This document shows, piece by piece, positions 765 through 31,339 of a stretch of DNA of 34,809 bases; positions within the stretch are counted from its first letter, which is position 1; every line of letters begins with the position of its first letter. Origin of the DNA: a candidate division WOR-3 bacterium (GTDB lineage Bacteria; Hydrothermota; Tepidihabitantia; SM23-42; JAOAFX01); contig JBDRWD010000021.1 of NCBI GenBank assembly GCA_039802205.1, positions 1 through 34,809 of the forward strand, written 5' to 3'. Under the pieces are notes generated by a model that made no database searches, was not told the DNA's origin, and was given only the letters and a program-made list of their open reading frames with translations. The translations under genes and the position numbers were made by a program.

Positions 765-1844
765 ATGTTATTCCTGCTATTGGTTTTGGGGATGGATATT
801 CAACTGGAGGTTTTTGATACGCCTAATGATGATGGGTCAAGTATTACACTGAAATGGCAGACGGCAGGGCATTTTCAATCCTTTGAGATCTACCGCCGTG
901 CTGCTAATAGTAACGATTTTGAAAAGATCGCTGAAGTTGCCGGGAGTGACCGGGAATATCAGGATTTAGATTTAAACTCGGGGGTTTTTTACTATTACCA
1001 GATTGCCGGAAAGAAAGATACTCTGAAGATTCTTTCTCAACCTGCAGGACCGGTGAGGGCAGTGGTCCAGTACTTCCATACCGCCCGTCTGCCCATGGCA
1101 GTCTGTATCGTTTTTCTTTTTTCGGTGATCATTTTCTATATAAGACGTGCTCGCAAGCGCCAGAAACTTTTTATCCGGAAAATCTCTGCGCTTAACGCGA
1201 TTGAAGAAGCCATTGGCAGGGCAACGGAAATGGGCAAGCCCGTATTATATGTTCCCGGGATAATGGATATCGATGATCCCCAGACAATTGCCTCGATGAG
1301 CATCCTTGCGCGGGTTGCTGAAAAGACTGCAGAATATGGAACTCCCCTTTATGTTCCCACCAGCCGCTCCATGGCAATGACCATGGCCCAGCAGGTGGTA
1401 AAAGAAGCGGCAACCAGGGTGGGACGTCCTGATTGGTATAATCCCGACAATATAAGATACATAACAGATGACCAGTTTGCCTATGTTTCAGCAGTGGATG
1501 GGATTATGGTGCGGGAAAAACCAGCGACCAATCTTTATCTGGGGACATTTTATGCGGAATCGCTTATCCTCGCTGAGACCGGGCATTCCACTGGCGCGGT
1601 GCAGATCGCCGGGACTGCGATGCCGGACCAGTTGCCATTCTTTGTGGCTGCCTGTGATTATACATTACTGGGAGAGGAATTATATGCGGCGAGTGCCTAT
1701 TTATCCCAGGAACCGGTTCAGCTTGGTTCACTTAAGGGACAGGATTTTGGGAAGTTTATATTTATTGTGGTGATCATCATCGGGGTGATAAGCCAGCTCC
1801 TTGACTGGCAATTTTTCATCAATCTATTCAATACCGTAGAATGA
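765..1844 (+). CDS. Cassette gene A, copy 1: FN3 + conserved cytoplasmic domain membrane protein (DUF6754-like)
   Basis: This 359-residue protein has a short hydrophobic N-terminus, one fibronectin type III-like domain (about residues 15-95), a membrane span near 108-127 and a basic stop-transfer patch (RRARKRQK). A conserved domain of about 190 residues follows, then a C-terminal span near 330-350. Positive-inside reasoning places FN3 outside and the conserved domain in the cytoplasm. Signature strings shared with the other two copies are GRATEMG, VGRPD, REKPATN and [16 protein letters not shown]. The domain resembles what I recall as DUF6754, a family without assigned function. The start at 765 is chosen because it alone gives a signal-like N-terminus matching copy 3. 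It has no ribosome-binding site, fitting a leaderless message; ATG 792 would remove the hydrophobic segment. The next gene begins 1 nt after the stop. Confidence 0.8.
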   Translation: MLFLLLVLGMDIQLEVFDTPNDDGSSITLKWQTAGHFQSFEIYRRAANSNDFEKIAEVAGSDREYQDLDLNSGVFYYYQIAGKKDTLKILSQPAGPVRAVVQYFHTARLPMAVCIVFLFSVIIFYIRRARKRQKLFIRKISALNAIEEAIGRATEMGKPVLYVPGIMDIDDPQTIASMSILARVAEKTAEYGTPLYVPTSRSMAMTMAQQVVKEAATRVGRPDWYNPDNIRYITDDQFAYVSAVDGIMVREKPATNLYLGTFYAESLILAETGHSTGAVQIAGTAMPDQLPFFVAACDYTLLGEELYAASAYLSQEPVQLGSLKGQDFGKFIFIVVIIIGVISQLLDWQFFINLFNTVE

Positions 1845-1845
1845 G

Positions 1846-2469
1846 ATGAAGGTAATTTTGCCATTGCTGATCGTCTTTGTTTGTGGATTTTACATGCTCA
1901 TAACTTTTTTTATCCCCGCGAAATTTGCCCAATCCAGTGCTCAAATGCTCCAGTTGTGGTATCAGGGTGTGGCAGCCTTTTTTGTCTTCATCGGGATATT
2001 CAATCTGATAAAGATCAATGTCGATCGGATACAGAGAAGATTGAAAGATTGGGAGTATAGCATAATCCTTCTTTCTTTCTTAGGCATTATGCTCGGAGCG
2101 GGATTTATTGGCGGGCGTGATTCCCGATTATTTCTTTATCTTTTTGAAAATTTTCAGGTACCCCTGGGTGCGACGATGTTTTCCCTCCTTGCCTTCTTTG
2201 TCGCTTCGGCTTCATTCAGGGCATTCCGGGCAAAAACTCCTGAGGCAACGTTGCTTTTGATTGCAGCGGTGTTGGTGATGATTGGAAGGATTCCGCTCGG
2301 CTATCTGCTCTGGCATAAATTTCCAGACCTGGTAGAATGGATAATGCGTGTGCCCAATACCGCGGCGAAAAGAGGCATTTTATTCGGGATTGACCTTGGC
2401 TTGCTTTCCATGGCGTTGAGGGTTCTTTTAGGGATTGAACGGAGTTATATGGGCGGCGGAGAAAAATAG
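1846..2469 (+). CDS. Cassette gene B, copy 1: six-span membrane protein
   Basis: This 207-residue integral membrane protein has about six hydrophobic segments (roughly 2-24, 38-57, 71-90, 105-125, 134-153 and 178-196). Blocks conserved with the other copies are VPLGATMF, the RAFRAKTPEATLLL stretch after span 4, and a C-terminal VPNTAAKRGILFG...LLGIER...GGG signature. It starts 1 nt after gene A, so it is translationally coupled. I recognise no named family. Its invariable place between A and C in three loci suggests a structural subunit of the same inner-membrane complex; that role is inferred. Confidence 0.75.
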   Translation: MKVILPLLIVFVCGFYMLITFFIPAKFAQSSAQMLQLWYQGVAAFFVFIGIFNLIKINVDRIQRRLKDWEYSIILLSFLGIMLGAGFIGGRDSRLFLYLFENFQVPLGATMFSLLAFFVASASFRAFRAKTPEATLLLIAAVLVMIGRIPLGYLLWHKFPDLVEWIMRVPNTAAKRGILFGIDLGLLSMALRVLLGIERSYMGGGEK

Positions 2470-2498
2470 TATGCTTCCGGGCATCAATACTGATAATC

Positions 2499-3320
2499 AT
2501 GAAGGTTTTTGAACGATTAAGTCGTCTGGATCGGAGGGTGATCTTTCTTCTGGTGGCGTTAGCTGTGATCGTTCCAATGGTCGTTCCCCTGAATCTGCCC
2601 GTGGACATCACCAAACCTGTAAAAAGGGTCTATGAGATGGTGGAATCTTTACCTGAAGGTTCGGTGGTGCTTATCTCTACGGATTACGACCCCGGTAGTG
2701 AAGCCGAATTATATCCAGCGACCGAGGCGTTTATTGAACACTGCTTCCGCCGCAACTTGAAGATATATCTGATGGGACTCTGGCCAGCTGGGAGTGAATT
2801 GGGTAATATCGCCCTTAACAAGATTGCGCAGGTTTATAATAAAAAATATGGTGAGGATTTTATCAATATCGGCTACCGACCCGGTGGCGCAGTGATGCTT
2901 TTGAGTCTGGGAAGAAATTTTGGGGATGTGGTAAAAGTGGATTATCAAGGTATCCCCGTCGATTCATTCCCTTTAGGCAGAAAGGTAAAATCAGCCCACG
3001 ACCTCGCGCTGGTGATGACCTTTTCTGCCGGCGACCCGGGAATTTTGCACTGGATAATATATTTTCATGCGCGGTATGGTGTTCCGATCTGTGGAGCAAC
3101 TACGGCAATAATGGCACCCCAGCAGTATCCCTACCTGAGCTCTGGACAGCTCGTCGGACTTTTGGGAGGATTAAAGGGTGCTGCAGAATATGAGACACTC
3201 GTAAATAAAAGGGGACGTGGTTTAAGAGGTATGGATTCCCAGTCGATAGTCCATCTTCTCCTCGTTGGATTTATCGCCCTCGGGAATGTGATACTTTTAT
3301 ATCAGAGGAGAAGGAGATGA
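2499..3320 (+). CDS. Cassette gene C, copy 1: double-anchored periplasmic alpha/beta-type protein
   Basis: The 273-residue protein starts with a basic segment (RLSRLDRR) and a membrane span at about 14-32. A soluble region of about 210 residues follows, then a second span near 248-268 and a basic tail (QRRRR). Positive-inside reasoning puts both ends in the cytoplasm and the main domain in the periplasm. Alternating hydrophobic strands and helices suggest a Rossmann-like or alpha/beta fold. Motifs shared by all copies are DYDP near residue 62 and YPYL.SGQ...G..GG.KGAAEYE near 205-235. No family is recognised and no catalytic site is proven. No ribosome-binding site is obvious in the 29-nt gap, but the N-terminus aligns with the other copies. 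It overlaps gene D by 4 nt. Confidence 0.75.
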   Translation: MKVFERLSRLDRRVIFLLVALAVIVPMVVPLNLPVDITKPVKRVYEMVESLPEGSVVLISTDYDPGSEAELYPATEAFIEHCFRRNLKIYLMGLWPAGSELGNIALNKIAQVYNKKYGEDFINIGYRPGGAVMLLSLGRNFGDVVKVDYQGIPVDSFPLGRKVKSAHDLALVMTFSAGDPGILHWIIYFHARYGVPICGATTAIMAPQQYPYLSSGQLVGLLGGLKGAAEYETLVNKRGRGLRGMDSQSIVHLLLVGFIALGNVILLYQRRRR

Positions 3321-3934
3321 TCAACATAATCGGGACTTGGATTGCAGCATTATTGACCCTGGCAATATATTCCTTTCTTTATAAAGACAATCCCTTCTAT
3401 AAACTTGCCGAGAATATATTTGTCGGCGTTTCCGCTGGATACTGGGCAGTGGTACTTTGGTTTGATTATGCCTGGCCCAATTTGTTTGAGCCCCTTTTTA
3501 AAAGGGGGCAGTGGTATAATATCTTTCCAATTTTTATCGGACTTTTGATGTTTGCACCGCTCATCCCCAGAATCTCGTGGATGGTGCGCATCCCCCTCAC
3601 CTTTACCATGGGTGTAGCAATGGCTGTTTCCATTACCCAGATCGTCCAGGGCGACATCTTCCCCCAATTGCAAGCAACCTTCTTGCCCTTGAAGGGAATT
3701 CCTTTTTTTGAAGCCTTTTCCAATTTCTTGATTATCTGTGGAGTTATTTCTACATTGGTCTACTTCTATTTTTCCAAAGAACATAAAGGGGCATTGGGTC
3801 TCGGCGCCAAGATTGGCATCTGGTTTATGATGATCTCTTTTGGTGCTTCTTTTGGTTATACGGTCATGGCGCGTGTTTCTTTATTTATCGGCCGGGTTTA
3901 TTTTCTGCTCCATAATTGGCTGGGGGTGATTTGA
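3317..3934 (+). CDS. Cassette gene D, copy 1: multi-span membrane protein
   Basis: This 205-residue protein has about six membrane spans. Blocks conserved in all copies are SFLYKDNPFYK at about residues 19-29, the R-SWxVRIP motif in the middle, FYFSKEHKG, and FGASFGYTVMARVSL..GR near the C-terminus. The ATG lies inside the stop of gene C (ATGA overlap), with AGGAG just upstream, so translation is coupled. In this copy the stop overlaps the ATG of the following PATAN-domain gene by 1 nt, tying the cassette directly to signalling-type genes. The family is not recognised; a channel-like or scaffold role is possible but unproven. Confidence 0.75.
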   Translation: MINIIGTWIAALLTLAIYSFLYKDNPFYKLAENIFVGVSAGYWAVVLWFDYAWPNLFEPLFKRGQWYNIFPIFIGLLMFAPLIPRISWMVRIPLTFTMGVAMAVSITQIVQGDIFPQLQATFLPLKGIPFFEAFSNFLIICGVISTLVYFYFSKEHKGALGLGAKIGIWFMMISFGASFGYTVMARVSLFIGRVYFLLHNWLGVI

Positions 3935-4770
3935 TGCCGGATTTGGAAGTGAATTTAAAAGAATTCAATCTTCCAGATGTTTTGCAATTTCTCGTCCAGC
4001 GACAAAAAACTGGGGTGGTGAGGGTTACAGGAGAGTTAAACGGCGAAATCTATCTCAAAGATGGCCGCATTGTACATGCGACGGATGGCACCGAAAAAGG
4101 ATTTGAATCCCTGCTCAACCTTTCGCTGGTTCGCTTAGAGAAAGGAGTATTTGAATCAGGTGTTAGGGCAGTTGAACAAACTATCTCCGAGGATGTGGGC
4201 AGACTAAATGAGAGTATCGAAAGGCGACGGATTGAATTTGAAAAGATTAAAGACCGTTTACCACCAAGGGATGCGGTGCTGGCAAAATCCACAAAGGAAT
4301 TGCCATCAGCCGTAGCTCTGCGTCGGACTGACTGGCAGATTCTGGCGATGATTGATGGAAGAAGAACTGTGAATGAGATCATTGCCCAATCCCAACTCGG
4401 AGGGTATGAGACGATAAAGACGATTGTATGGCTCAAAGAGCAGGGTTTGATTTATGATCCAAAGGAAGCAGAAAGATTGATGGCGGGACTTATAAAATAT
4501 CTCAATGCCTTCTTCAAGACTTTTGGAAAGAATGGTTTGAATTGGTTTAAGCGGTGGTCCGAGATGAATGCTGAGAACCAAATGCTTTCTTCAGCAATAA
4601 AAATAAACGAAGAGACTTTTGAGATTGAAATTCTAAATTCCCTCGCCGAAGACCAGATTGAGACCTTTAAGAAGAGTTTTGAGGAATTTATCAAGAATGA
4701 GGGACCTCAATTATACGGCAAACTTTTGTTCAAAAAGAAACTTGAAGAGATGGGTGCGGAGTTAAGATAA
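3934..4770 (+). CDS. PATAN/DUF4388-domain protein with winged-helix-like region
   Basis: The 278-residue soluble protein opens with a PATAN (DUF4388) domain at about residues 1-100, recognisable by LKEFNLPDVLQFL, the GEIYLKDGRIVHA hairpin and the GFESLLNLSL helix. A winged-helix-like segment follows at about 125-175 (DWQILAMIDGRRTVNEII... WLKEQGLI), as is usual in this family, and then a charged helical tail. PATAN proteins are adaptor or regulatory components in two-component, gliding-motility and polarity systems. I choose ATG 3934, preceded by GGGGGTG, over an upstream TTG. It overlaps the stop of cassette gene D by 1 nt, so it is co-translated with the cassette. It may couple cytoplasmic signals to the A-D membrane proteins; this is inferred. 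Confidence 0.75.
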   Translation: MPDLEVNLKEFNLPDVLQFLVQRQKTGVVRVTGELNGEIYLKDGRIVHATDGTEKGFESLLNLSLVRLEKGVFESGVRAVEQTISEDVGRLNESIERRRIEFEKIKDRLPPRDAVLAKSTKELPSAVALRRTDWQILAMIDGRRTVNEIIAQSQLGGYETIKTIVWLKEQGLIYDPKEAERLMAGLIKYLNAFFKTFGKNGLNWFKRWSEMNAENQMLSSAIKINEETFEIEILNSLAEDQIETFKKSFEEFIKNEGPQLYGKLLFKKKLEEMGAELR

Positions 4771-4782
4771 AAAGGAGTGGAG

Positions 4783-5529
4783 ATGGAAATACTTGATAGG
4801 ATACCCGGGATATTAAACTATGCTGTGGTCAATGCTGAGGACGGTTCAATAAAAGAAGTCAAGGGTTCATCTACTTCACCTGTTGGAGATCTGACAGCCT
4901 TTTTCTCTTCGGGTGCCGAGGTGATTAAGAATACTTTAAATCTGGGTGAGATTGAATTCATCACCATCTGTTACGGAGCGAATCGACTTATTATCTTTCC
5001 TCACGAAAATCATTATCTCGGTATTGAGGTGGTGCGGGAGGAGAATCCAAGGGAGTTTATGGGAAGAGTAAAAGAGCAATTGATTCAGAAAAAAGAGGTG
5101 AAAGAAGAGATAAAAGAAACGGTCACGGAGAAAATTCCAGAGGGGGTTAAAAAAGAGGAGATAGAAGCAGCAAAGGTTACCGAAGAAAAACCACGGATGG
5201 AAATTGAAATACCCAGAAGTATTAAATCCAAACTTTTGCAGCTAAATATGCTGGTAGATGAGTTCGGGAGCGGAGGTAAAAAGGACCACTGGATTGAGAT
5301 ACTCAATCAAGGACTGGGAATTTTGGCGGCGGATATCTTGCCTTTGGTGGGTATTATTGAAGATAAGTTGGCTTTCAAACAAACTCCACCACCGGAGAAA
5401 GAAGAAGATATCGTCCAGATCCTAAGAACACTCATTGATTTTCTGGTGAAAAAAGCCGTAGAAGAGATGGGCTCTTCTCAGGCGCGTGTAAAGGTTCAAT
5501 CGGTTATTGAAAAAATGAAGCAACTGTAA
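4783..5529 (+). CDS. Roadblock/LC7-like protein with charged linker
   Basis: This 248-residue protein has an N-terminal domain (about 1-90) whose pattern fits the roadblock/LC7 fold: an opening helix, VVNAEDGSI, a long helix, then two strands. A highly charged Lys/Glu-rich, probably coiled linker follows (about 93-140), then a helical C-terminal domain (about 145-245). Roadblock proteins regulate small GTPases such as MglA or form scaffold dimers; no GTPase is encoded in the window. ATG 4783 is preferred over GTG 4777, because the latter overlaps the AGGAG ribosome-binding site. The gene lies 12 nt after the PATAN gene and 10 nt before a similar gene. The family call is moderate. Confidence 0.5.
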   Translation: MEILDRIPGILNYAVVNAEDGSIKEVKGSSTSPVGDLTAFFSSGAEVIKNTLNLGEIEFITICYGANRLIIFPHENHYLGIEVVREENPREFMGRVKEQLIQKKEVKEEIKETVTEKIPEGVKKEEIEAAKVTEEKPRMEIEIPRSIKSKLLQLNMLVDEFGSGGKKDHWIEILNQGLGILAADILPLVGIIEDKLAFKQTPPPEKEEDIVQILRTLIDFLVKKAVEEMGSSQARVKVQSVIEKMKQL

Positions 5530-5539
5530 GGGGGGATTT

Positions 5540-6127
5540 ATGGCAGAAGAGATTCTGAACCGTATTGAAGAACGGGGTTTGGGACTTCCCTTCATCGTGA
5601 AGAAGGACGGCACTATCTTCACCTCTAAAGGCGGGGCGGATTTGGGGTATAAATTCAATCAGACCGCGACCGTGGTGTTTGAGACAATCGGTGCGCTTGG
5701 AGGTATAAAGATTGAAAATTTAGAGATAATAGGGAAGAATCAGAGTCTTTTGTGTGAGATTAGCGAGGAAGAGATTATCGGACACCTTTTCGCGACTGTG
5801 CAGATGGCTATATACGACAATATTCTGGAGGCGATAAAAGAATTAAAAAAGAGGGGTGAGGCGATTGTTAAAGAAGAGGCAAAACCAAAGGAGAAGTACC
5901 CTCCAGAATTCCTGGATGAATTAAAAAAACTGGTTCAAGAATATCTTGGTGATTTTGCCGAGCGGGTATTTCAAAACCAACTTAAAGCCCAGCGGATTAA
6001 GCCTGAAGAGCTTTATGAAGAAGAAATCCGACGTTTTATCTTCGCCTTAGGTAAGGCCGCCGGAATGATAATAGGTCCTACCAAGGGTAGAGACCTTACC
6101 AATAAATTGTTAGCCCGATTAAAATAG
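5540..6127 (+). CDS. Second roadblock/LC7-like protein
   Basis: This 195-residue soluble protein has an N-terminal half (about 1-105) resembling a roadblock/LC7 domain and its neighbour: GLPFIVKKDGTIFTSKGG, a long helix (ATVVFETIGAL), strands, and a final helix. The C-terminal half is helical and charged (KYPPEFLDELKKLVQEYLGD onward) and ends in a LARLK tail. The start has GGGGGA upstream. Two adjacent roadblock-like proteins could form a heterodimer, as known for some roadblock pairs; this is inferred. The operon position after the PATAN gene supports a signalling or scaffold role. Confidence 0.5.
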   Translation: MAEEILNRIEERGLGLPFIVKKDGTIFTSKGGADLGYKFNQTATVVFETIGALGGIKIENLEIIGKNQSLLCEISEEEIIGHLFATVQMAIYDNILEAIKELKKRGEAIVKEEAKPKEKYPPEFLDELKKLVQEYLGDFAERVFQNQLKAQRIKPEELYEEEIRRFIFALGKAAGMIIGPTKGRDLTNKLLARLK

Positions 6128-6135
6128 GAGGTGGT

Positions 6136-6504: not shown

Positions 6505-6532
6505 GGGGTTTAAATAATATAAGGAGGAATCT

Positions 6533-6883: not shown

Positions 6884-6886
6884 TGC

Positions 6887-6914
6887 TTGACATAGTGGAG
6901 TTTTTAGATATAAT
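6887..6914 (+). promoter_or_regulatory. Consensus sigma-70-type promoter for exbB operon
   Basis: TTGACA (6887-6892) and TATAAT (6909-6914) are both perfect hexamers with a 16-nt spacer. The predicted start near 6921 leaves a short leader that contains the AAAGGAGG of exbB (6927-6934). Confidence 0.8.
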
Positions 6915-6942
6915 GGAGAATAACAGAAAGGAGGCATAGCAT

Positions 6943-7566
6943 ATGGTCAAAGAATTTGCAATTGGCGGAAGCGTGATGTGGTTGTTGCTGGTCTGCATCA
7001 TCTTGGGACTGGCAATTATAATTGAGCGGCTTTATTCTTTGTTGATAAAAATAAGGCTGAATCCTAAGAGCTTTATGGAGCGGTTGGTCTCTACAATAGA
7101 TGCTCAGGGTGTGGATGCGGGAATTGCGTTATGTGACCAGACTTCGTCACCAGCAGCCAAGATTGCCAAGGCGATTCTGGAAAAAGCCGATAAAGGCAAA
7201 GATGCGATGGAAGAAGTCGCTACCCGTGCCGCCGCGGTAGAACTGGCATTTTTGGACCGTGGCATGGCACTCCTTGCCGGTTTGACCACGGTTGCACCTT
7301 TTTTAGGATTCTTGGGCACGGTCACGGGTATGATCCGGGCATTTGCCGCGATTGCTGCGGCGGGAGAAGTTGAACCCACAATCGTTGCCAGCGGTATCTC
7401 CGAGGCATTGATAACAACGAAGTGGGGATTGTTAATTGCCACACCCCTGGCAATCATCCATATCCTTTTTTCGGGCAAGGTTGATGGTTATACTAAGGAT
7501 ATGGAAGAAGTGGCAGCAGGATTGATTGATTATCTCATTGAGCATTATCAGAAAAGGAAAAAATAG
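6943..7566 (+). CDS. MotA/TolQ/ExbB-family proton channel
   Basis: This 207-residue inner-membrane protein has a first span at about 11-33, a cytoplasmic region, and the conserved family core: LDRGMALLAGLTTVAPFLG, LGTVTGMIRAF, and a last span around TTKWGLLIATPLAIIHI. In the ExbB family it forms the pentameric channel that uses the proton gradient to drive TonB. The two ExbD genes and the TonB gene that follow point to ExbB rather than TolQ. It carries a strong AAAGGAGG and its own consensus promoter, and it abuts the first ExbD gene with no gap. Confidence 0.88.
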   Translation: MVKEFAIGGSVMWLLLVCIILGLAIIIERLYSLLIKIRLNPKSFMERLVSTIDAQGVDAGIALCDQTSSPAAKIAKAILEKADKGKDAMEEVATRAAAVELAFLDRGMALLAGLTTVAPFLGFLGTVTGMIRAFAAIAAAGEVEPTIVASGISEALITTKWGLLIATPLAIIHILFSGKVDGYTKDMEEVAAGLIDYLIEHYQKRKK

Positions 7567-8031
7567 ATGGAATTGAGACCGAAGAAAAAAAACAAACCCA
7601 GCATTCCCACTGCCTCCATGGGTGACATTGCCTTTCTGATCATCATCTTTTTTATGACCACCACGGTTTTTACACGCGAGAAGGGTATCAAGATGTTGTT
7701 ACCGGAAAAAAGCCAGCAGGAGACCAAAGTAAAACCGGAGAATGTTGTTTCGATCCTGATCAATCCAGAGGGCGCATTGAGATTGAGGGCTGCAGGCTAT
7801 GACGGAATAGATATATCGCCCCAGAATTATTCTGAAGTGCGCCGGATTGTTGAAGAAAAATTACTGGAGCGAGATACCCTTCTTGTCGTTTCTTTGAAAA
7901 CCAGCCGGGATGCGCGTTACCAGGCGATGATTGCGGTTTTAGATCAGATAAAATTGTGCCGGGTTGTCACCCAAGATGGTCGGGAATTGCGGGCTAATAA
8001 GATAAGTTTGATCCCAACGAGTGAGGAGTGA
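7567..8031 (+). CDS. ExbD/TolR-family biopolymer transport protein (first)
   Basis: This 154-residue protein has a short basic N-terminus, one membrane span and a periplasmic domain. The family's proton-coupling Asp is present at residue 20 in MGDIAFLIIIFFMTTTVF. The preceding PSIPTAS is typical of ExbD. With ExbB it forms the motor that energises TonB. The ATG follows the exbB stop directly, and its TGA overlaps the next ATG, so all are coupled. Confidence 0.85.
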   Translation: MELRPKKKNKPSIPTASMGDIAFLIIIFFMTTTVFTREKGIKMLLPEKSQQETKVKPENVVSILINPEGALRLRAAGYDGIDISPQNYSEVRRIVEEKLLERDTLLVVSLKTSRDARYQAMIAVLDQIKLCRVVTQDGRELRANKISLIPTSEE

Positions 8032-8447
8032 TGCGCAAAAGCATTATAAGAAGATTTACCCAGACACCGGAGATTCCTACCGCCTCTACAGCCGATGTCG
8101 CCTTTTTGCTCATCCTGTTTTTTATGGTGACGACTGTTTTTAGGGCCACGACCCTTAATCTAAAACTCACCTTGCCCAAGGCGAAGTCCACGGAACGGAT
8201 TCTAATCCGTCGCAATATCACCCATCTTTTCATTGACCACAATGGGCGTGTATTCATAGATGACAGTTTGGTGCCTAAAGAGCGGGTGAGTTCCCGCATT
8301 GCACCTAAAATCGCTGAGAATCCTGATCTGATTACGATTTTGAATATTCACGAGGATATCGATTATGGGACCGTGGATGTAGTATTGGATCAATTAAAGG
8401 AAGCAAGGGCGTTTAAGATTACATTTGCAACTGAGTTTGGGGGTTAA
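8031..8447 (+). CDS. ExbD/TolR-family biopolymer transport protein (second)
   Basis: This 138-residue ExbD-like protein has the conserved Asp at residue 22 (TADVAFLLILFFMVTTVF), one span and a periplasmic domain. I choose ATG 8031, overlapping the previous TGA, over GTG 8028. The AGGAG at 8024-8028 sits unusually close, so the exact start is uncertain by one codon. Two different ExbD proteins with one ExbB is a common arrangement in the FCB group and suggests an ExbD heterodimer in the motor. Confidence 0.85.
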   Translation: MRKSIIRRFTQTPEIPTASTADVAFLLILFFMVTTVFRATTLNLKLTLPKAKSTERILIRRNITHLFIDHNGRVFIDDSLVPKERVSSRIAPKIAENPDLITILNIHEDIDYGTVDVVLDQLKEARAFKITFATEFGG

Positions 8448-8448
8448 G

Positions 8449-9057
8449 ATGAATGACCACAAGCTAATGTATGGCATCTATTTTCGTGCCGGTATGCTCA
8501 TTGGGATTGTTATCTTGATTCTTTTATTCCTTTTTGTACCTTATGCTGAGGTGGAGCCATATAAATTGAAAAAAGAGATCGTGACGATGGTGGAGCAGAT
8601 ATCGGCTGAGATTGAAAAATACGAAGAACCACCACCAGTCGAAAGACCGAAAGTCGCGGTTGCTGCTGCGGCGACTGAAGTTACAGAAGAGGCCGTGGAG
8701 ACAATTGCTTCCACTGAGTTTCGGGAAGAAATCATCAGAACCCAACCGACGGGCCCGGAAATAGAGATCATTCCTTATGCCCGTGTGGAGGTAAAGCCCA
8801 AGCCGGTTTTTATCCCTAAACCGGAATATCCTGAATTGGCTCGTAAGGCAGGTATAGAAGGTAAGGCATATGTAGAGGCGATAATCGATATCGATGGAAG
8901 TGTGATGGAAGCAAAAATCTTTAAATCAAGCGGTAATCCCATGCTGGATGAAGCAGCACTCGCCGCGGCGAGAAAGGCAAAATTTACACCGGCGAAACAA
9001 CGGGATAAATTTGTCCGGGTCCGGGTCAATATTCCTTTTGATTTTAAGTTGCAATAA
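8449..9057 (+). CDS. TonB-family energy transducer
   Basis: This 202-residue protein has an N-terminal span at about 11-32, a short Pro/Glu-containing linker with an unusual Ala-rich patch (about 60-120), and a C-terminal TonB domain at about 122-202 (YPELARKAGIEGK, VDG-type turn, AAARKAKFTPA). TonB spans the periplasm and transmits ExbB/ExbD energy to outer-membrane receptors; the receptor at 10239 is its likely partner. ATG 8449 is used, 1 nt after the preceding stop; the extra N-terminal residues of the longer frame would start at a non-ATG inside exbD. The linker is short compared with enterobacterial TonB. Confidence 0.85.
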   Translation: MNDHKLMYGIYFRAGMLIGIVILILLFLFVPYAEVEPYKLKKEIVTMVEQISAEIEKYEEPPPVERPKVAVAAAATEVTEEAVETIASTEFREEIIRTQPTGPEIEIIPYARVEVKPKPVFIPKPEYPELARKAGIEGKAYVEAIIDIDGSVMEAKIFKSSGNPMLDEAALAAARKAKFTPAKQRDKFVRVRVNIPFDFKLQ

Positions 9058-16014: not shown

Positions 16015-16024
16015 GGAGGCAAAA

Positions 16025-17137: not shown

Positions 17138-17149
17138 TTAAAAACTTAA

Positions 17150-17182
17150 GCAGGGTGGGGTCGGTCATCGACTCCACCCTGC
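17150..17182 (+). other. Strong intercistronic hairpin
   Basis: A 14-bp stem with one G-T pair (gcagggtgggg tcg against cga ctccaccctgc) closes a 5-nt loop (gtcat). It lies immediately before the AAAGGAG of the next gene and lacks a T-tract, so it looks like an RNA stability or processing element, or a translational gate, rather than a terminator. It separates the PorV-like gene from the C39-like peptidase gene. Confidence 0.6.
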
Positions 17183-17195
17183 AAAGGAGTGGATG

Positions 17196-19844: not shown

Positions 19845-19850
19845 TAAAGA

Positions 19851-19866
19851 GAAAGGAGGTGAGAGG
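19851..19866 (+). promoter_or_regulatory. Upstream GAAAGGAGGTGA leader motif
   Basis: GAAAGGAGGTGAGAGG occurs about 90 nt before the start of the Asp-box protein gene, which has its own AAAGGAG. As at the other leader sites, it is nearly perfectly complementary to the 16S rRNA tail but far from a start codon. No ATG opens it here. Its role is unknown. Confidence 0.35.
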
Positions 19867-19892
19867 AAAAAGAAAAAAAACAGGTTGCAATC

Positions 19893-19910
19893 TCCCAGCA
19901 AATGCTGGGA
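19893..19910 (+). terminator. Hairpin in leader of the Asp-box protein gene
   Basis: A perfect 8-bp inverted repeat (tcccagca/tgctggga) has a 2-nt centre and is followed by actatttta. The T-run is short, so it may be a weak terminator after the peptidase gene or a leader structure of the following gene. The structure is seen directly; the function is inferred. Confidence 0.4.
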
Positions 19911-19949
19911 ACTATTTTAGCAGGATGGTTTTAAAAGAAAGGAGTGAAC

Positions 19950-21570: not shown

Positions 21571-21600
21571 AAAAAAGGGGGCCCAAAAGCCCCCTTTTTT
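21571..21600. terminator. Bidirectional intrinsic terminator
   Basis: The arms aaaaaagggggc and gccccctttttt (12 bp) flank the loop ccaaaa. The A-run and T-run give a U-tract on both strands, so it ends both converging operons. It overlaps the stop codon of the glycosyltransferase gene. Confidence 0.92.
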
Positions 21601-23632: not shown

Positions 23633-23635
23633 TGG

Positions 23636-24256
23636 TTATTTTATCAGCCCCAACCAGGTGCCAAACAAAAACTGGAGCCGTCCGATAAGTAAAGAAAGTC
23701 GTGCCATCACGGTATAACCGAATGAGGCGCCAAAGCCAACCATGATGAATATAATGCCGAGATAGGAGATCGGTTTTAGCACACCCTTATGTTCTCGGGA
23801 GAAGAAGAAAAAGAAAATTGTGCTAAGGACACCGATGAAGATCAGTACTGCCCATAAACCCTGTTGCCAATTCGAAAAGAGGTGGGGATAGATTACAGTG
23901 CCTTGAATCTGTTTGATCACATCTGCCTGGATTATCGCTGGAATACTTACCCCTGAAGAAAAACCGAGGGCAACGGCAATTGGAATGCGCACGAGCCAGG
24001 AGAGACGGGGAACGAAGCGGAAGAAGTATAATAAGCCAATCACCATGGGGATTAAAACCCAGTAATTTCCACCCTGTAACGGTAAAATAAGCCTGGGTGT
24101 CAAAACGAGGTGGTAGGTTACGGCAATTGCATAGCCGTTTGCTACTCCCACGAAGAGATGTTCACAGAACCGATAAAAGGGATTTTCTTTATAAAGAAAA
24201 GAAAGGATTCCGATGGTTAGAAATGCACCAATCCAGATCCAGGGATCCTGGTTCAT
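23636..24256 (-). CDS. Cassette gene D, copy 2: multi-span membrane protein
   Basis: This 206-residue protein is a paralogue of the D genes at 3317 and 28090. It keeps SFLYKENPFYRF, FVPRLSWLVRIPI, FFSREHKG and GFGASFGYTVMARLSLLIGR in about six spans. The ATG overlaps the stop of gene C by 4 nt. The glycosyltransferase gene follows after 3 nt. It looks closer to copy 3 than to copy 1 (for example WLVRIPI, PAIIQADVIKQIQGT against PATIQANIIKQIQGT). Function is unknown. Confidence 0.75.
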   Translation of the reverse strand: MNQDPWIWIGAFLTIGILSFLYKENPFYRFCEHLFVGVANGYAIAVTYHLVLTPRLILPLQGGNYWVLIPMVIGLLYFFRFVPRLSWLVRIPIAVALGFSSGVSIPAIIQADVIKQIQGTVIYPHLFSNWQQGLWAVLIFIGVLSTIFFFFFSREHKGVLKPISYLGIIFIMVGFGASFGYTVMARLSLLIGRLQFLFGTWLGLIK

Positions 24257-25119
24257 TTCTTCCTCCTTGTCGCAAAATACCCAATGTTGCCGATGATCAC
24301 CAATAAAAGAATCATCAGATGGGCGATGGATTGCGAACCCATGCCCCGGGTAGCGGGTGTAGCTCCGGTGAGATTATATTTGGTACTGACCAGATATTCG
24401 TATTCTGAAGCACCTTTTAGCCCAGCAATCATCCCGCACATCTGCCCGGTCTGTAAAAAGGGATAAAAATCTGGTGCAGTCACGGCAGTGGCACCTGACC
24501 CAACCCGGACACCAAAGCGGGTATTGGCATAGATAACCCAGGATTGAGGTATTGCACTTCCAGCAATGGAGATGATTACTCCGATATCGTTATAGTTCTT
24601 TATCTTCTTCATCATTTCTAAAGAAGCAGTCCGGTTTTTGTAATAATCAGCGGGAAATGCCTGACTTATATCCGATCCCATCCTCAATACCGCTGCAAGC
24701 CATAAGGGCGGATAGCCGAGAAAGACATAGTCCCGGCCATAGAGAATTGAATCCTGGTTTGTCTGAGCCCGGGCATTGAATTCTTCCGTTACCTGGTTTA
24801 ATCCTTGCTGTGCCAGTCCCGGACCCTGGATATAAGAGGTCATCACAAGCACCGGAATGCGCCGGGCAAAGGCATGTCTTAACAGGGCAATGAACATCGG
24901 ATGTAATTCAGGCATCGTTTGGGGATCATAATCAGCTGAGATTAAAATTCCTTGGTTTTCCGGGTCAATCGTCTCTATTACATCAAACAATTTCTGGGTA
25001 TATGGCATGACATTCGTTTTTATCCGGAAAGGGAAAAGTAGCGGAATCAACACCGAAAGTCCGACGAGTAAAAAGACTATCCGCCGGTCAATCCTCAAAA
25101 GATATTCCCAGAATTTCAT
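24253..25119 (-). CDS. Cassette gene C, copy 2: double-anchored periplasmic protein
   Basis: This 288-residue protein has a basic start (RIDRR), a membrane span at about 13-31, a periplasmic alpha/beta-like domain and a C-terminal span near 263-281 with a TRRKK tail. The conserved [10 protein letters not shown] lies near residue 64, and YPFLQTGQ...G.KGASEYE near 225-245. Compared with copy 1 it has a longer loop around [11 protein letters not shown]. It overlaps both B and D by 4 nt, giving tight coupling. No family is recognised. Confidence 0.75.
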
Positions 25120-25796
25120 TTCCCGCCTCCTAACCAGTTTCTTTCAATCCCTAAAATAATTTTAAGTGAGGTTGCTGCTACCCCTAAACCTACTCCAAAG
25201 AGAATTCCTCTTTTTGATGCGGTATTGGGCACATCCATTATCCACTGTGCAAGATAAGGAAGTTTGGGTGAGATATAATAGCCGAGGGGGACTACCCCAA
25301 CCATGACAATGAAGGCGGCGACAAGGAGGAGCGTTGCTTCCAATGTCCGGGCACGGAATGCGCGGTAGGCAGCAGATGCCATAAAGAATGCCAACAAAGC
25401 AAACATTGTTGCCCCCAAAGGGGTCATCACATTATCATAGATGGTCTGGATTGAGTATTTCACCACCAGGATTTTATCGCCGATGGGTAATCGGAACTGT
25501 ACTGGTAATGGTCCTTTTCCTTCCATCCCTCCGAATAGTCCAATGATTGCAACGACTACGATGGAGATGAGGGTCACCCAGGAGTATTGCCAGTGCTCTT
25601 TTTTCCTCCGGATCTTATCAATGTGATGGTTTATCAGGCTGCCCAATCCTAAGACTAAGGCAAAAGAGGCGATTATCCCCAGCCAGTCCAGAAAATTCAT
25701 ATAGATATCTTTCGATATCCGGTGGGGTATGAAAAATTGGACAAGCATAGCAATGCCGATGATCAGGACTATCATTAAAGGAATAGTGCGTTGCAT
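25116..25796 (-). CDS. Cassette gene B, copy 2: six-span membrane protein
   Basis: This 226-residue membrane protein is paralogous to the B genes at 1846 and 29588. It carries the [36 protein letters not shown] and [13 protein letters not shown]...[11 protein letters not shown] signatures. Spans 3 and 4 are separated by a longer loop ([15 protein letters not shown]) than in copy 1. A GGAGG lies upstream, and the gene follows A copy 2 by 17 nt and overlaps C by 4 nt. Confidence 0.75.
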
Positions 25797-25813
25797 CTTA
25801 CCTCCTTTAATTG

Positions 25814-27922
25814 TTATTGGACATGGAAGATATTATAGACTGGAATGCCCAGATTCAGCAACGCCAGAATGGTGGCGATTATTAGCACACCGGCAATCAC
25901 CAGTTTGCTGTAGTCCTGACTCTTCAGGGCGGCGAGGAGCGTTGGTTCCCTTGAGATATAGGCACTCGCCGCATACAATTCTTCACCGATAAGGGTATAG
26001 TCACAGGCAGTGATAAAAAATGGTAATTGGGTGATTGCATCGGTTCCTGAAATCTGTATAGCTCCGGTTGAGGCACCACTTTCCGCCATGATCAAGGATT
26101 CGGCCCAGAACATGCCTACCAAAAAATTCGTTGCAGGTTTCTCCCTGATCATTATACCACTTACCGCGGCGGCATAGGCAAACTGGGAGTCGGTGATAAA
26201 ATACACGGAATCCGGATTAAAGGCATCTGGTCGCCCGACTTTATTGTAGGCCTCTTTAACAACCTCGCGTGCCACCGTGAAGACAATTGGGTCACGATTG
26301 GGCACGATCAAGGGGGTATTGTACTGGGCAGACTTTTTCGCCACCTCGCTCAGGATATTTAAAGAGGCGATCGTTGCAACATCGCTAATATCAGAGGTTC
26401 CTGGAACATATAGAATCGGTCGTCCCATCTCGGTTGCTCGTCCCACGGCTTCATCAATCGCGGATAAACCGGCAATCCGGCGCACAAATATATTCTGTTT
26501 TTTCTTGGTATATTCAATAAAGAACACCACCAGGAAAACAAAGATAATGATACCAATCAAAGCATTGATTCTTCCCGTATGGAACCACTGGGGTGAGGAA
26601 ACAACATAGGGTGTGGTCTGGGAAAAGATTCTCTCACCATCCTTAGTAATCGCAACGATTTTATAAGCATAGGGAACACCGTCGTATATGCCAATACGGT
26701 CTTGGTAAGTGTTTACTTGGGAACCCAGACGCGCATACACTCCATAATTTCCACTATCCTTCTCAGCCCGCATCACATAATAACCGAGAAATTCTGGTGG
26801 CTCTTTTGATTTTTGCCAGGATAAAGAGATTGCTCTTTTGTCGCCAATTATCGTGTCTTGGATAATGCGGTGCGGAATTCTTACTTCCTTAACCGCCCGG
26901 GCTTCATAAAGATATTCCTTACCAGGCTCGGCAGTGCCATCAATGAATTTAACCGCATCCGGTGCCGTGTAATCGATATATTTGAACTTATCTGTGCTGT
27001 CCTTCTCTGCACGATAGATTAAGGTCAAATCATAATTCTGCCCCACCACCTTTGGATTTAATTTCCATTCGATCCTTATCACCCTTCCGGTCATTCCTAC
27101 GGAATCAGCAACGATACTTGCCGGCATAACAATCTGGTAGTTCTTACCGATGTAATAATGGTAATCAACCTCGGGTTTTACAGTTGAATCAACATAGAAA
27201 AAGGTGTCCTTGAAAGCAGCGATTGAATCATAAACCAGTCGCATTAATGCATAACTTTTTATAAGTCCATAATTCTGGGATGGTTCCCAGGTGATTTTGA
27301 AACCACCCCCCTCATCATTGGGAATGTCAGAAGCCTGTAAAAACTTGGGCGTGCCAATGGTGAAAAGCGGTGGCGAAGGTTCTGAGCACGCTCTCTCCGA
27401 ACCCCGGACATTGGCGACTTTATAAAAATATTTTACACCGTCTTTGATTGTTGTATCCCGAAAACTCAATTGATTCTTGGAAACGGTGCCGATGATTTCA
27501 TAAGGACCGTTCCGGGCTGTGCGCCAGATTTCATAGATCTCCTTGAGATATAAATCGTTTGGCCTTTTCCATTTTATAATATTCCGGTTATTGATGGTAT
27601 CCCGGATGACCTGGTATCCGATAGATACAACTTTTAAAAAATTTTTCTGTCCGTTATAACATTTCATTCGTTCCTTCTTGACAATGTCGTAGAGGTATTC
27701 GTCATCCGGACGGATATCGGAATCAATGTAGAGGGTATCCTGAATGAGGGTTTTAAGGAGGATATACTGCGAACGGTAGATTTCGTAACACTCAACATTT
27801 TTTTCTTTTGTCTCCCATGTGAGGGTGATGCTTATACTATCCTGATTGATTATTTTTAATGCCCGCACATTCTCGGGCGGACTCAGGGTAAAGAGCAAGA
27901 TTGTAAGTCCATAATTTATCAT
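25814..27922 (-). CDS. Cassette gene A, copy 2: five FN3-like domains + conserved cytoplasmic domain (DUF6754-like)
   Basis: This 702-residue paralogue of the two ~360-residue A proteins has about five consecutive FN3-like domains (about 12-445) instead of one. Each has a YEIYR/YVMR-type strand and a YLY/YFYKV-type strand. A span follows near 448-468, then a basic patch (KKKQN) and the conserved domain (about 474-670: [50 protein letters not shown]), then a C-terminal span. The expansion lies wholly in the extracytoplasmic part. ATG 27922 with AGGGG 6 nt upstream is chosen over GTG 27928, which lies in the ribosome-binding site. The next gene, B, is 17 nt away. Confidence 0.8.
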
Positions 27923-27984
27923 AGTCACCCCTTTTTGCTATTTGATCACGGGCTTTACGCGCCAGATTATCAATCCGATTCTTA

Positions 27985-28012
27985 AGTATATTTAGTGTCA
28001 CTGAAAAATCAA
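27985..28012 (-). promoter_or_regulatory. Probable promoter of cassette copy 2
   Basis: Read on the minus strand, TTGATT (28012-28007) and TATACT (27990-27985) are spaced 16 nt apart. Transcription would start near 27978, leaving about 55 nt before the ATG. The gap to the end of cassette copy 3 has no clear terminator, so copy 2 may also receive read-through. Confidence 0.5.
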
Positions 28013-28089
28013 GAAAAAAGTTGAATCTATATTTCTCAAATCCGGTATCTTTTCGATGCAGAGAAAAATTCTGGATTTGCTCGATAAAG

Positions 28090-28731
28090 CTATTTGATTA
28101 TTCCCAACCAGGGTCCGAGTAAGTACTGTAAGCGACCAATCAATAAAGAGACCCTCGCCATCACCGTATAACCGAAAGCTGCGCCAAATCCGACCATGAT
28201 GAAGATTATTCCGATGCGGGAGGATATTTTGAGCAACCCTTTGTGTTCTTTTGAGAAATAGAAATAAGAGAGGGTACACAGAACGCCGATGAATAGGATT
28301 ATCGACCAGAGGATACCGGTATTTCCGGCATGCCAGGCGAGAAAGTTTTCTTTTGTCAGGATTGTTCCCTGAATCTGTTTGATGATATTCGCCTGAATGG
28401 TAGCAGGGATTGATGCTCCGGTATAATAACCGATGGTGATACCAATCGGTATGCGCACGAGCCAGGAGAGACGGGGAATGAAGCGGGTGAAATATAACAC
28501 ACCGATGATGAGGGAGAGGATGTAGATTAACTTTCCCTGTCTGAATAAGGGGTCAAAGAGTGAAGGAACGAGAATGTTATGCCAGTAGAATGTTACTGCA
28601 TAACCATTTGCAGCACCTACAAAGACATGTTCAGCAAACTTATAGAAGGGGTTGTCTTTGTATAAAAAAGAGAAGATGGCAAGGCTTAAAAGCGCACTGA
28701 TCCATACCCAGGGGTCTAAAGAGATATTCAC
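28090..28731 (-). CDS. Cassette gene D, copy 3: multi-span membrane protein
   Basis: This 213-residue protein is a paralogue of the other D genes, with SFLYKDNPFYKFAEHVFVG, IPRLSWLVRIPI, YFYFSKEHKG and GFGAAFGYTVMARVSLLIGR in about six spans. It starts with GTG overlapping the stop of gene C by 4 nt, preceded by AAGGAG. It is the last gene before the cassette copy 2 promoter region. Function is unknown. Confidence 0.75.
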   Translation of the reverse strand: MNISLDPWVWISALLSLAIFSFLYKDNPFYKFAEHVFVGAANGYAVTFYWHNILVPSLFDPLFRQGKLIYILSLIIGVLYFTRFIPRLSWLVRIPIGITIGYYTGASIPATIQANIIKQIQGTILTKENFLAWHAGNTGILWSIILFIGVLCTLSYFYFSKEHKGLLKISSRIGIIFIMVGFGAAFGYTVMARVSLLIGRLQYLLGPWLGIIK

Positions 28732-29591
28732 TTTTTTCTCCTTTTTATAAAATACCCGATATTGCCGATGATAATAAAAATCATCATTACCAGATGGGCA
28801 TAGGTTAGTGAAGGCAGGGCGGTGCTCGCCTTCCGGTGTTTATAAATAGCCAAACGCGTTTCCACGAGTTCTTCATATTCGGCTGCCCCTTTCATGCCTA
28901 CCATCAATCCGCTGAACTGTCCGGTCTGGAGATACGGATAGTAATCACTCGCCGAGACCGCGGTGCAACCTACACCAACTTTTAGTCCGAATCGATTCTG
29001 GGCATAACCCACCCACCATAACGGTGGGTCACCGCTGCTGATACATATCAAAAGCCCCACCTGATTATAATTTTTCACCCTTTTCATGAGTGGTAAAGTA
29101 TCGGTCTGATTGCCATAATAGTCTTTCTTGTAGACATTGGTGATGCTCTCGCCCATACCCAAGATAGGCACAAGGGGCGGAGGTTGCCAGCCCAAAAATA
29201 TATAATCTCGTCCATAAATGATACTATCCGCCCTTGATTTTGCCTCGGCATTGAATTCTCCCACCACCTGGTCAAGTGCAGCCTTCGCCAGTCCGAGCGG
29301 CTGAACATATAAACTCAAAGCCAGAACTTTTATCCGCTTTTTAAAGGCATGCCTGAGAATAGCTAAAGCCATTGGTTCTAATTCAGGTTGGGTCTGCGGG
29401 TCATAATCAAAATCTATCATCAGGACTTTATCAACCGGGATGGTATCCACTGCGTTATACAATTTCTCAACTGGAGGCATTACCCGAACATGCTGTACCG
29501 AGGGGATGATCAAGGGTAAGATTACTACCACCGCCAGCACAAGATAGATTATTCTCCGGTCGATCTTGAGCATTAAATCTACGAGATTCAC
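28728..29591 (-). CDS. Cassette gene C, copy 3: double-anchored periplasmic protein
   Basis: This 287-residue protein has a basic start (KIDRR), a span at about 14-32, a periplasmic domain with DYDPQTQPELEP near 64 and YPYLQTGQ...G.KGAAEYEELV near 225-250, then a C-terminal span and an IKRRKK tail. It starts with GTG overlapping gene B (GTGA), with GGGAGG upstream. It shares RDYIFLGWQPP, with the aromatic and proline layout of copy 2 rather than copy 1. No family is recognised. Confidence 0.75.
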   Translation of the reverse strand: MNLVDLMLKIDRRIIYLVLAVVVILPLIIPSVQHVRVMPPVEKLYNAVDTIPVDKVLMIDFDYDPQTQPELEPMALAILRHAFKKRIKVLALSLYVQPLGLAKAALDQVVGEFNAEAKSRADSIIYGRDYIFLGWQPPPLVPILGMGESITNVYKKDYYGNQTDTLPLMKRVKNYNQVGLLICISSGDPPLWWVGYAQNRFGLKVGVGCTAVSASDYYPYLQTGQFSGLMVGMKGAAEYEELVETRLAIYKHRKASTALPSLTYAHLVMMIFIIIGNIGYFIKRRKK

Positions 29592-30247
29592 TCTCCACCT
29601 CCCAGCCAGGAACGCTCAATACCCAAAAGAATCTTTAAGGCTGTAGCCAGGGAACCGAGTGCGATGCCGAAGGCGATACCCCTCTTTCCTGCGACATTGG
29701 GCACATCCATTATCCATTGGGCAAAGGAGGGCAAATGGGGTGAGATTTGATTACCAAGAGGTAGAATCCCGAGCATCACCACAAAGGCAGAGATAAGCAG
29801 TAAAGTCGCTTCAGCAGACCGGGCACGGAAGGAGCGATAGGCAGCCGATGCCATGAAAAAGGATAAAAGGGCAAACATGGTAGCACCCAGGGGGACTTCT
29901 ACATGGAGATAAATCGTCTGGATGTCAAAGGGGAAATTACCAATCTTTGTTGGGAGTGGACCGGTTCCGGAAACTCCTCCGAATAAACCGATTATAGAGG
30001 TAACAAAGAAGGTGATTAAAAGAACCCAGGAATATTCCCAATTCTCCCTCCGATGCTGGATTTTGTCAAAATGGACCCGTAAAAGACTTCCCAGACCCAG
30101 AACGAGTGCAAATGCCGCGAGGATGCGTAAAAGGTCGTTGCGTAAAAATTCATCGCTATTCTGGACAACAGGATGGGGAACGACGAAAGGTATGATACCC
30201 AAAATACCAAAGATAAAAACCAAAATTAAAGGTAATGTCCTTGTCAT
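29588..30247 (-). CDS. Cassette gene B, copy 3: six-span membrane protein
   Basis: This 219-residue protein is a paralogue of the other B genes with [35 protein letters not shown] and VPNVAGKRGIAFG...LLGIERSWLGGG. The loop GGVSGTGPLPTKIG resembles that of copy 2 and is shorter in copy 1. It follows gene A by 9 nt with TAGGAG upstream and overlaps C by 4 nt. Confidence 0.75.
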   Translation of the reverse strand: MTRTLPLILVFIFGILGIIPFVVPHPVVQNSDEFLRNDLLRILAAFALVLGLGSLLRVHFDKIQHRRENWEYSWVLLITFFVTSIIGLFGGVSGTGPLPTKIGNFPFDIQTIYLHVEVPLGATMFALLSFFMASAAYRSFRARSAEATLLLISAFVVMLGILPLGNQISPHLPSFAQWIMDVPNVAGKRGIAFGIALGSLATALKILLGIERSWLGGGE

Positions 30248-30256
30248 ATCTTTCTC

Positions 30257-31339
30257 CTATCGGAATAAATTTAGAACAGGAAAGTTGGTTATTAAACCTA
30301 CAATTGAGGCAAAGATGAGGATGCCTGCAATTATCAACTTCCCCCAATCTTCGCCTTTAATTGCACCCATGAGCAGGGGCTCCCTTGAGATATAGGCGCT
30401 CGCTGCATAGAGTTCTTCGCCGATCAATGTGTAGTCACATGCGGTCACAAGAAATGGTAACTGGGCAAGGGAGTCGGTTCCGCTTATCTGGATCGCACCT
30501 GTGGAAGCACCGGTTTCCGCGAGGATGAGGGATTCGGCATAGAAGGTGCCGATGAGGAAATTAGTTGCGGGTCTTTCCCTAAGCATAATTCCGTCAAGGG
30601 CAGCGGCATAAGCAAACTGTGAGTCTGTCACAAAGAATACACTCTCCGGGTCAAAGGCATCCGGACGACCTACCTTGGTATAGGATTCCTTGATGATCTC
30701 CCGTGCTACTGTATACACAATTGGGTCATAATGGGGATTGATCAGTTTGGTATTATATTGGGCAGTTTTTTTAGCAACCTCACCCAATATATTCAATGAG
30801 GCAATCGTCGCAATCTGTTCAATATAGCCGATGCCAGGGCAGTAAAGAATGGGTTTTCCCATCTCTGTCGCCCGACCCACGGCTTCCTCCACCGCCTGTA
30901 AGCCCGAAATTTTTCTTATGTACAATTCTTTTCCCTTGCGTGCCTGAACGATAAAGTAGAGGATTATACCTCCCAATACCAAAAGAGCGATGATGATATT
31001 GGTCTTGCTCCGGTCAAACCATTGGGCAGAGCTCATTACCGGGTTAGAGATTTCAGAAAATACCCTCACTGTGTCTTTGACCGCGGCAACCCGGTAATAA
31101 TATTTTTTTCCATCCTCGGTCTGGTCATCAAGAGAATTCCGACTCCTTCCGATGAACCCGACCTTTTCAAAATTAATTCCATCTTCACTCCTGTAGACCT
31201 CATAACCATCAAGGAGTGCATCATCCGGTGATAACTGCCATTCTAATATCACCATTCCTCCGCCATCATCCGGGGCATCGTGTGCCTGAACCGGTCCGGG
31301 TGGGGAGAGGTTCGTGAACATTAAAAAGATAAGAAACAT
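30257..31339 (-). CDS. Cassette gene A, copy 3: FN3 + conserved cytoplasmic domain (DUF6754-like)
   Basis: This 360-residue protein has a short signal-like N-terminus (MFLIFLMFTNLSPPG), one FN3-like domain (about 18-105), a span near 111-130 and a basic patch. The conserved cytoplasmic domain (about 135-325) carries [24 protein letters not shown] and [22 protein letters not shown], followed by a C-terminal span. The frame stays open for 39 codons upstream, but ATG 31339 is preferred: it has AAGGAGG 6 nt upstream, gives a length equal to copy 1, and clears the MazG-like gene. Its 41-nt distance from that gene suggests co-transcription. Confidence 0.82.
   Translation of the reverse strand: MFLIFLMFTNLSPPGPVQAHDAPDDGGGMVILEWQLSPDDALLDGYEVYRSEDGINFEKVGFIGRSRNSLDDQTEDGKKYYYRVAAVKDTVRVFSEISNPVMSSAQWFDRSKTNIIIALLVLGGIILYFIVQARKGKELYIRKISGLQAVEEAVGRATEMGKPILYCPGIGYIEQIATIASLNILGEVAKKTAQYNTKLINPHYDPIVYTVAREIIKESYTKVGRPDAFDPESVFFVTDSQFAYAAALDGIMLRERPATNFLIGTFYAESLILAETGASTGAIQISGTDSLAQLPFLVTACDYTLIGEELYAASAYISREPLLMGAIKGEDWGKLIIAGILIFASIVGLITNFPVLNLFR

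Follow-up and report, generated by a model that had tools for sequence, protein, structure and literature searches.

In envelope assembly platforms of the PilMNOP and GspL type, a cytosolic protein of an actin-fold ATPase family is joined to inner-membrane proteins with periplasmic domains, and relatives of GlmL, the MutL-family protein (PF13941) of methylaspartate mutase, have an ASKHA-type ATPase fold. Here, we studied a 34,809-nucleotide (nt) stretch from a candidate division WOR-3 bacterium (contig JBDRWD010000021.1; "the window" below always means this whole stretch, and the full genome comprises 95 contigs and 2.65 Mb and is 96% complete), in which four membrane-protein genes, A, B, C, and D, form repeated cassettes, together with their candidate cytosolic partners E, a MutL-family protein, and G. 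With the PilMNOP/GspL-type platforms this system would share a works-like analogy only: No sequence relation to them was found for any part, and no pilus or secretion family is matched by the DUF6754 domain of A or by B, C, D, E, or G. By its Pfam match, the operon partner clearly belongs to the MutL/GlmL family but differs from GlmL in length (about 600 amino acids [aa] vs. 460 aa), falls below the equivalog cut-off for GlmL proper (NCBIfam NF040745, 229.5 bits against 475), and occurs without methylmalonyl-CoA mutase. The likeness to Rnf/Nqr complexes consists of weak RnfC_N and biotinyl/lipoyl matches in G and of the polytopic pair B and D, whereas the A-D system lacks both the Rnf/Nqr membrane families and Fe-S cysteines and has an ATPase as its partner. 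Finally, the conserved domain of A matches Pfam PF20539 (DUF6754) over its full length, but this is a name without a function, and the FN3 domains, B, C, D, and the partners lie outside the profile. The system appears to be undescribed, in agreement with the original prediction, which was made from the window's sequence.

That prediction had placed an A-B-C-D cassette three times within 31 kb, and all twelve open reading frames (ORFs) were found where it put them, in the same order (Table 1). The junctions are likewise as described, with a 29-nt B-C gap and a 4-nt C-D overlap in copy 1 and 4-nt overlaps at both junctions in copies 2 and 3, and every copy contains the motifs GRATEMG and ACDYTL (A), PLGATMF and LGIER (B), DYDP and KGA-EYE (C), and FLYK-NPFY and GYTVMAR (D). 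Judged by their sequence identities (46–55% for A, 46–61% for B, 33–47% for C, and 46–60% for D), the window copies are clearly homologous but old. Chance is excluded by two more complete cassettes on other contigs and by the same four-gene order in 72 loci: The whole genome encodes exactly five DUF6754 genes, and each of the two beyond the window is again the first gene of an A-B-C-D cassette. The 72 loci, which carry about a dozen phylum labels and include the window and these two cassettes, hold 93 complete cassettes, all in A-B-C-D order. Start/stop overlaps of 4 nt occur at 38 of the 93 B-C junctions and 42 of the 93 C-D junctions, and the distance matrices of A to D correlate with r of 0.71–0.85, against a permutation maximum of 0.16. 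The ordered cassettes, the overlaps, and the correlated distances indicate joint inheritance of the four genes, and they support the earlier proposal of a conserved, probably stoichiometric membrane complex. Members of A-D are thus not mostly scattered apart from one another in other genomes, and solitary A genes were found in a few loci (L055, L065, L066, and L102; L, G, and C with a number denote loci, genomes, and contigs, respectively).

The assignment of DUF6754 to A, made in the original prediction, proved correct, with PF20539 matched at E values of about 1e-114 to 1e-119 and 381–396 bits (curated cut-off 27), from profile position 2 or 3 to position 249–256 of 257. Neither Pfam nor NCBIfam contains a family for B, C, or D, profile searches against the PDB with B, C, D, and the DUF6754 domain returned no relative, and profile comparison of B with D gave a homology probability of 2.3%. 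A literature search found no paper that mentions DUF6754 or PF20539. An origin as a defence system or from a phage was rejected, as A-D, E, MutL, and G had no match among the PADLOC models and no PHROGs match was obtained.

The domain is widespread. In the window's phylum, DUF6754 was present in 134 of 141 genomes (90 of the 93 of good quality), with one to seven copies per genome, and it was also found in 54 of 61 Armatimonadota genomes, mostly as a protein of 255–340 aa without FN3; none of 14 well-known control genomes had it. A scan of public data returned 79 loci under the following phylum labels, which are the depositors' own: WOR-3/Stahlbacteria, Latescibacterota, Eisenbacteria, Edwardsbacteria, Coatesbacteria, CSSED10-310, Armatimonadota, Zixiibacteriota, Fermentibacteria, Poribacteria, Celaenobacter, and others. 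Two of these labels look wrong because the genomes that contain L045 (labelled Latescibacterota) and L083 (labelled Proteobacteria) have the same coordinates as G090 and G008, respectively, both members of the window's phylum.

Although three copies do lie within 31 kb, they are not the product of a recent triplication, as none is the nearest relative of another. In a tree of concatenated A-D sequences, the window copies are not sisters: Copies 2 and 3, which are tandem neighbours, do not group together, and copy 1, about 20 kb away, is the most divergent. Among 17 multi-cassette loci, none has its own copies as one clade. The nearest cassettes are those of L042/L038 for copy 2, of L048/L047 for the copy on contig C31, and of L070/L082 for the copy on contig C25. 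Because each copy is nearest to cassettes of other species, the window samples several ancient sub-lineages.

Table 1. Cassette genes of the window and the two further cassettes of the same genome
Feature	Position	Strand	Description	Basis
A, copy 1	765..1844	+	359 aa; N-terminal hydrophobic/signal segment, FN3-like region, transmembrane helix, DUF6754 domain, transmembrane helix	PF20539, E 9.5e-119
B, copy 1	1846..2469	+	Membrane protein, about six predicted spans; without Pfam family	
C, copy 1	2499..3320	+	Transmembrane helix, periplasmic alpha/beta domain (predicted), transmembrane helix	Structure: model of paralogue
D, copy 1	3317..3934	+	Membrane protein, about five or six predicted spans; without Pfam family	
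A, copy 2	30257..31339	-	360 aa from internal start; signal segment, FN3, transmembrane helix, DUF6754 domain, transmembrane helix	In-frame start at 31339; longest ORF starts at 31456
B, copy 2	29588..30247	-		ORF list and Pfam scan
C, copy 2	28728..29591	-		ORF list; AlphaFold model
D, copy 2	28090..28731	-		ORF list and Pfam scan
A, copy 3	25814..27928	-	704 aa; enlarged periplasmic part with several FN3-like repeats, transmembrane helix, DUF6754 domain, transmembrane helix	GTG start at 27928, in-frame ATG at 27922; Pfam fn3 E 2.9e-06 (two stretches), DUF6754 E 3e-117
B, copy 3	25116..25796	-		ORF list and Pfam scan
C, copy 3	24253..25119	-		ORF list and Pfam scan
D, copy 3	23636..24256	-		ORF list and Pfam scan
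Fourth cassette	L006 7535-10505		A without FN3 region, located after SLBB-family protein	
Fifth cassette	L007 3510-6748		Complete A-B-C-D	

The system is larger than the four genes first proposed, as three cytosolic proteins that are mostly encoded in single copy, E, the MutL-family ATPase, and G, also belong to it, and we consider it very probable that they and A-D form one wider system. E is a protein of about 100 aa with a PAIxFLExxKP core, MutL (PF13941) has about 600 aa, and G about 375 aa. The MutL of L087 matches PF13941 at 427.8 bits (cut-off 27; E 6e-128), and shares 70% identity with the copy in this genome. RnfC_N is weakly matched by nine of 11 G proteins (best E 3e-4) and Biotin_lipoyl by eight of 11, with a weak KOW match in addition; the G of this genome reaches 18.4 bits against RnfC_N, below the cut-off of 25.6. 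G has a barrel-sandwich-like domain with a hydrophobic FFGLF hairpin at the position of the biotinyl lysine turn. In nine loci of several labelled phyla G lies directly upstream of A, usually in the order E-MutL-G-A-B-C-D, and it also adjoins A in at least six genomes from the phylum of the window (G001–G005 and G010). Among Armatimonadota, E is upstream of A in 20/20 loci, directly so except in L130 and L131, where MutL-G stands between the two (L131 has two further frames there as well); MutL-G shares the operon of the cassette in three Armatimonadota loci and is downstream of the cassette in L143, and in L134 the frame of E is overlapped by another. About eleven of the 20 loci have a gene with two transmembrane segments, P, before E; the sequence of P was read as that of a bacterial PH-domain protein, an assignment that Pfam did not confirm. 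The genome of the window carries GcvPB-E-MutL together on contig C48 (L118 6115-9609) and G on contig C29, so that five A and five C genes stand against one E, one MutL, and one G. In several other loci the E-MutL-G-A-D operon is flanked by genes for glycine decarboxylase and lipoate-protein ligase.

Gene loss ties these partners to the cassette. G122 and G123, two genomes of one genus that are 94–95% complete, are without A, C, G, MutL, and E, whereas four sister genera carry all five. Within Armatimonadota, G is present in 13/13 A-positive vs. 2/7 A-negative genomes (Fisher p 0.0014), and E in 3/3 A-positive genomes tested vs. 0/7 A-negative ones. A role of MutL as a chaperone of methylmalonyl-CoA mutase was rejected for want of co-occurrence: PF01642, the family on which this test was based (glutamate and ornithine mutases fall outside it), is absent from the system-bearing genomes G120, G121, G124, G125, G053, G018, G178, G170, G211, G171, G184, and G215. 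A literature search found no paper linking WOR-3 with glutamate mutase.

Membrane topology was derived from hydropathy and positive charges only, and it agrees, as do the structural models, with the original prediction in placing FN3 and the C domain outside, the conserved A domain inside, and B and D in the membrane with multiple spans. For C, RIDRR precedes the first transmembrane helix and RRKK follows the last; in A, the signal segment, FN3, and a transmembrane helix are followed by ARKGKxLxIRK. FN3, predicted to be periplasmic where present, is dispensable, being missing from one copy in this genome and from most Armatimonadota A proteins. In the genome's five A copies, the stretch before the EAVGRATE motif ranges from 63 to 491 residues, so that A is variable outside and nearly constant inside. 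AlphaFold modelled C of copy 2 with a predicted local distance difference test (pLDDT) value of 94.8 and a predicted template modelling score (pTM) of 0.90, and A of copy 2 with a pLDDT of 93.0 and a pTM of 0.74; both models have six beta-alpha units, with one transmembrane helix before and one after. If the models are right, A in the cytosol and C in the periplasm would present the same six-strand alpha/beta topology on the two sides of the membrane. An hhalign comparison of A with C scored 26.2 (probability 11.6%), compared with 22.2 for the best of 60 block shuffles and 17.0 for the reversed control, and the probability had been 2.2% and 1.2% before Armatimonadota diversity was added; this profile comparison is suggestive of a common ancestry of A and C, but not decisive. 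Foldseek found no convincing relative of C in the PDB (best E 0.003, template modelling score about 0.34), and its matches for A were to FN3 only, as FN3 swamped the search.

Beyond the observed gene families, gene order, copy numbers, operon links, co-loss, and predicted folds, we hypothesize complex formation, ATP coupling, and transport or assembly. A-D, which we infer to be one complex on which E, G, and MutL act from inside, would make up the portion of a conserved envelope machine that lies in the inner membrane, with the genes for the cytosolic portion at other sites of this genome. The alpha/beta domain of A, which is highly conserved, would face the cytosol, and the FN3 domains that A has in most lineages would face the periplasm, as would the C domain, which shares the topology of the A domain; B and D would form the multi-span core. 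G would dock with E on the cytosolic face and recruit the ATPase MutL, and ATP hydrolysis would power conformational work that is passed via A to the periplasmic face, most likely to move or assemble an envelope component, with the substrate chosen by the periplasmic parts (the number of FN3 domains, the C domain, or a neighbouring SLBB protein). By analogy with its family, MutL is proposed as the ATPase engine shared by the modules, and a single cytosolic engine would then serve several exchangeable membrane modules, one to seven per genome; we propose this sharing because five A-D modules face one E, G, and MutL, and because A varies outside and hardly inside. Taken as a whole, this mechanism is a tentative proposal that we regard as plausible but doubtful. 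A broader version is rather unlikely to hold in all its parts, namely, that the system represents a class of ATP-driven envelope machine not described before, which was ancestral to Armatimonadota and to many candidate phyla related to the Fibrobacteres-Chlorobi-Bacteroidetes (FCB) group, with one MutL-G-E engine, several exchangeable A-B-C-D modules, and both alpha/beta domains derived from one ancestor.

Several observations weigh against the machine and its extended membership. Two A-negative Armatimonadota retain G; A and C are missing from G013, which still has G, MutL, and E; and G136 has the cassette and lacks MutL and G, with the latter two exceptions perhaps explained by assembly gaps. 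MutL, E, and G are often distant from A-D in the window's phylum, this genome included, and MutL-family proteins are not known as drivers of membrane machines. Five loci, which form one sub-lineage and include L006, have a polysaccharide-export type SLBB protein immediately upstream of A, and the link is confined to that sub-lineage. Moreover, the deep conservation of the cytosolic A domain fits an enzyme active site no less than an interface for energy coupling. The cassette could be a membrane enzyme complex in which DUF6754 in the cytosol and C in the periplasm act on a lipid- or glycan-linked intermediate that B and D carry across the membrane, and the densely spaced invariant polar motifs of A (GRATE, AES, CDYT, GEE) and C (DYDP, KGAxEYE), the predicted alpha/beta nature of both domains, and weak fold matches of C to glycosyltransferases and PpnN/LOG-type nucleosidases speak for it (for the SLOG/LOG-type fold of PpnN/LOG, E about 0.01–0.09 and template modelling score about 0.3, at rank 46 in the viral library). 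However, no PDB fold match of C falls below E 1e-3, those of A are to FN3, profile searches give no PDB relative for any domain, and the co-inherited ATPase is left without a role, so that we consider an enzyme complex fairly unlikely.

The variation of A in the periplasm and its near constancy in the cytosol, together with one to seven modules per genome vs. single-copy cytosolic partners, would also suit a signal relay, in which FN3 and C sense a periplasmic ligand or the state of the envelope, B and D transmit, and the DUF6754 domain with E, G, and MutL relays inside, the paralogous cassettes being receptors of different specificity on one pathway. Yet ligand-specific receptors are not usually near-universal in two phyla, the neighbourhood of the cassette has no recurrent DNA-binding, kinase, or second-messenger domain, and two extra polytopic subunits exceed what a receptor needs; envelope transport or assembly is weakly favoured over pure signalling by the SLBB neighbour and the FN3-less A downstream of it in L006, and we judge a relay to be unlikely. 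An ion-translocating complex of the Rnf/Nqr kind, with G as the RnfC/NqrA-like part by its barrel-sandwich domain and B and D as the six-span subunits, would account for the weak RnfC_N and Biotin_lipoyl matches and for the two polytopic proteins, but it is very improbable given that B, C, and D match no Rnf/Nqr membrane family, that neither a conserved Cys cluster nor a His pair of the heme type is among the invariant residues, and that the co-inherited partner is an ATPase, not an oxidoreductase. Least credible of all is that the cassette provides the missing export machinery for proteins with C-terminal tails of the type IX secretion system (T9SS) type; such proteins are abundant in the genome and some are encoded beside cassettes, but G122 and G123 contradict this, having 73 and 52 tail proteins without A, C, E, MutL, or G.

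The envelope machine that we prefer, and indeed any function of the system, is open to laboratory test because a single-copy version is found in a cultivated organism, as genome G178 is putatively that of Chthonomonas calidirosea T49 (PMC4959169). It has one DUF6754 gene, in the order P-E-A-B-C-D at about 3,194,880-3,198,913, of which E-A-B-C-D occupies about 3,195,326-3,198,913, and G at 1,744,570-1,745,715. About 95% of the genomes in one phylum and nearly 90% of those in another have retained the system, which occurs under about a dozen phylum labels and in up to seven copies per genome, and such wide retention without an assigned function suggests that a basic envelope process is missing from current knowledge. 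It has been overlooked partly because most carriers are uncultivated and also by naming, given that A is filed as a domain of unknown function, that the name of MutL misleads, and that no family entry exists for B, C, D, E, or G.

The neighbours of the window cassettes are partly recurrent. Directly downstream of copy 1 (3916-6127) are a DUF4388 protein and two proteins without a Pfam match, and these DUF4388-containing neighbours are followed at 6943-9057 by genes for one ExbB/TolQ-like, two ExbD/TolR-like, and one TonB-like protein; L115 has retained this arrangement all the way from A to the ExbB/ExbD-like genes, and a DUF4388-like protein is likewise near G on contig C29 (L129 9165-9797). 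Upstream of copy 2 are a MazG-type pyrophosphohydrolase and a 545-aa protein of a recurrent family (31380-31676 and 32981-34618), both of which occur again upstream of cassettes in L038, L040, L041, and L044. A fusion of a PMT_2-type glycosyltransferase with TPR repeats immediately follows copy 3 and shares its strand (21599-23632). Between the cassettes, positions 13021-21557 encode three large secreted-looking proteins with T9SS-type C-terminal tails, and the genome as a whole has 144 TIGR04183 matches, very many for 2.65 Mb.

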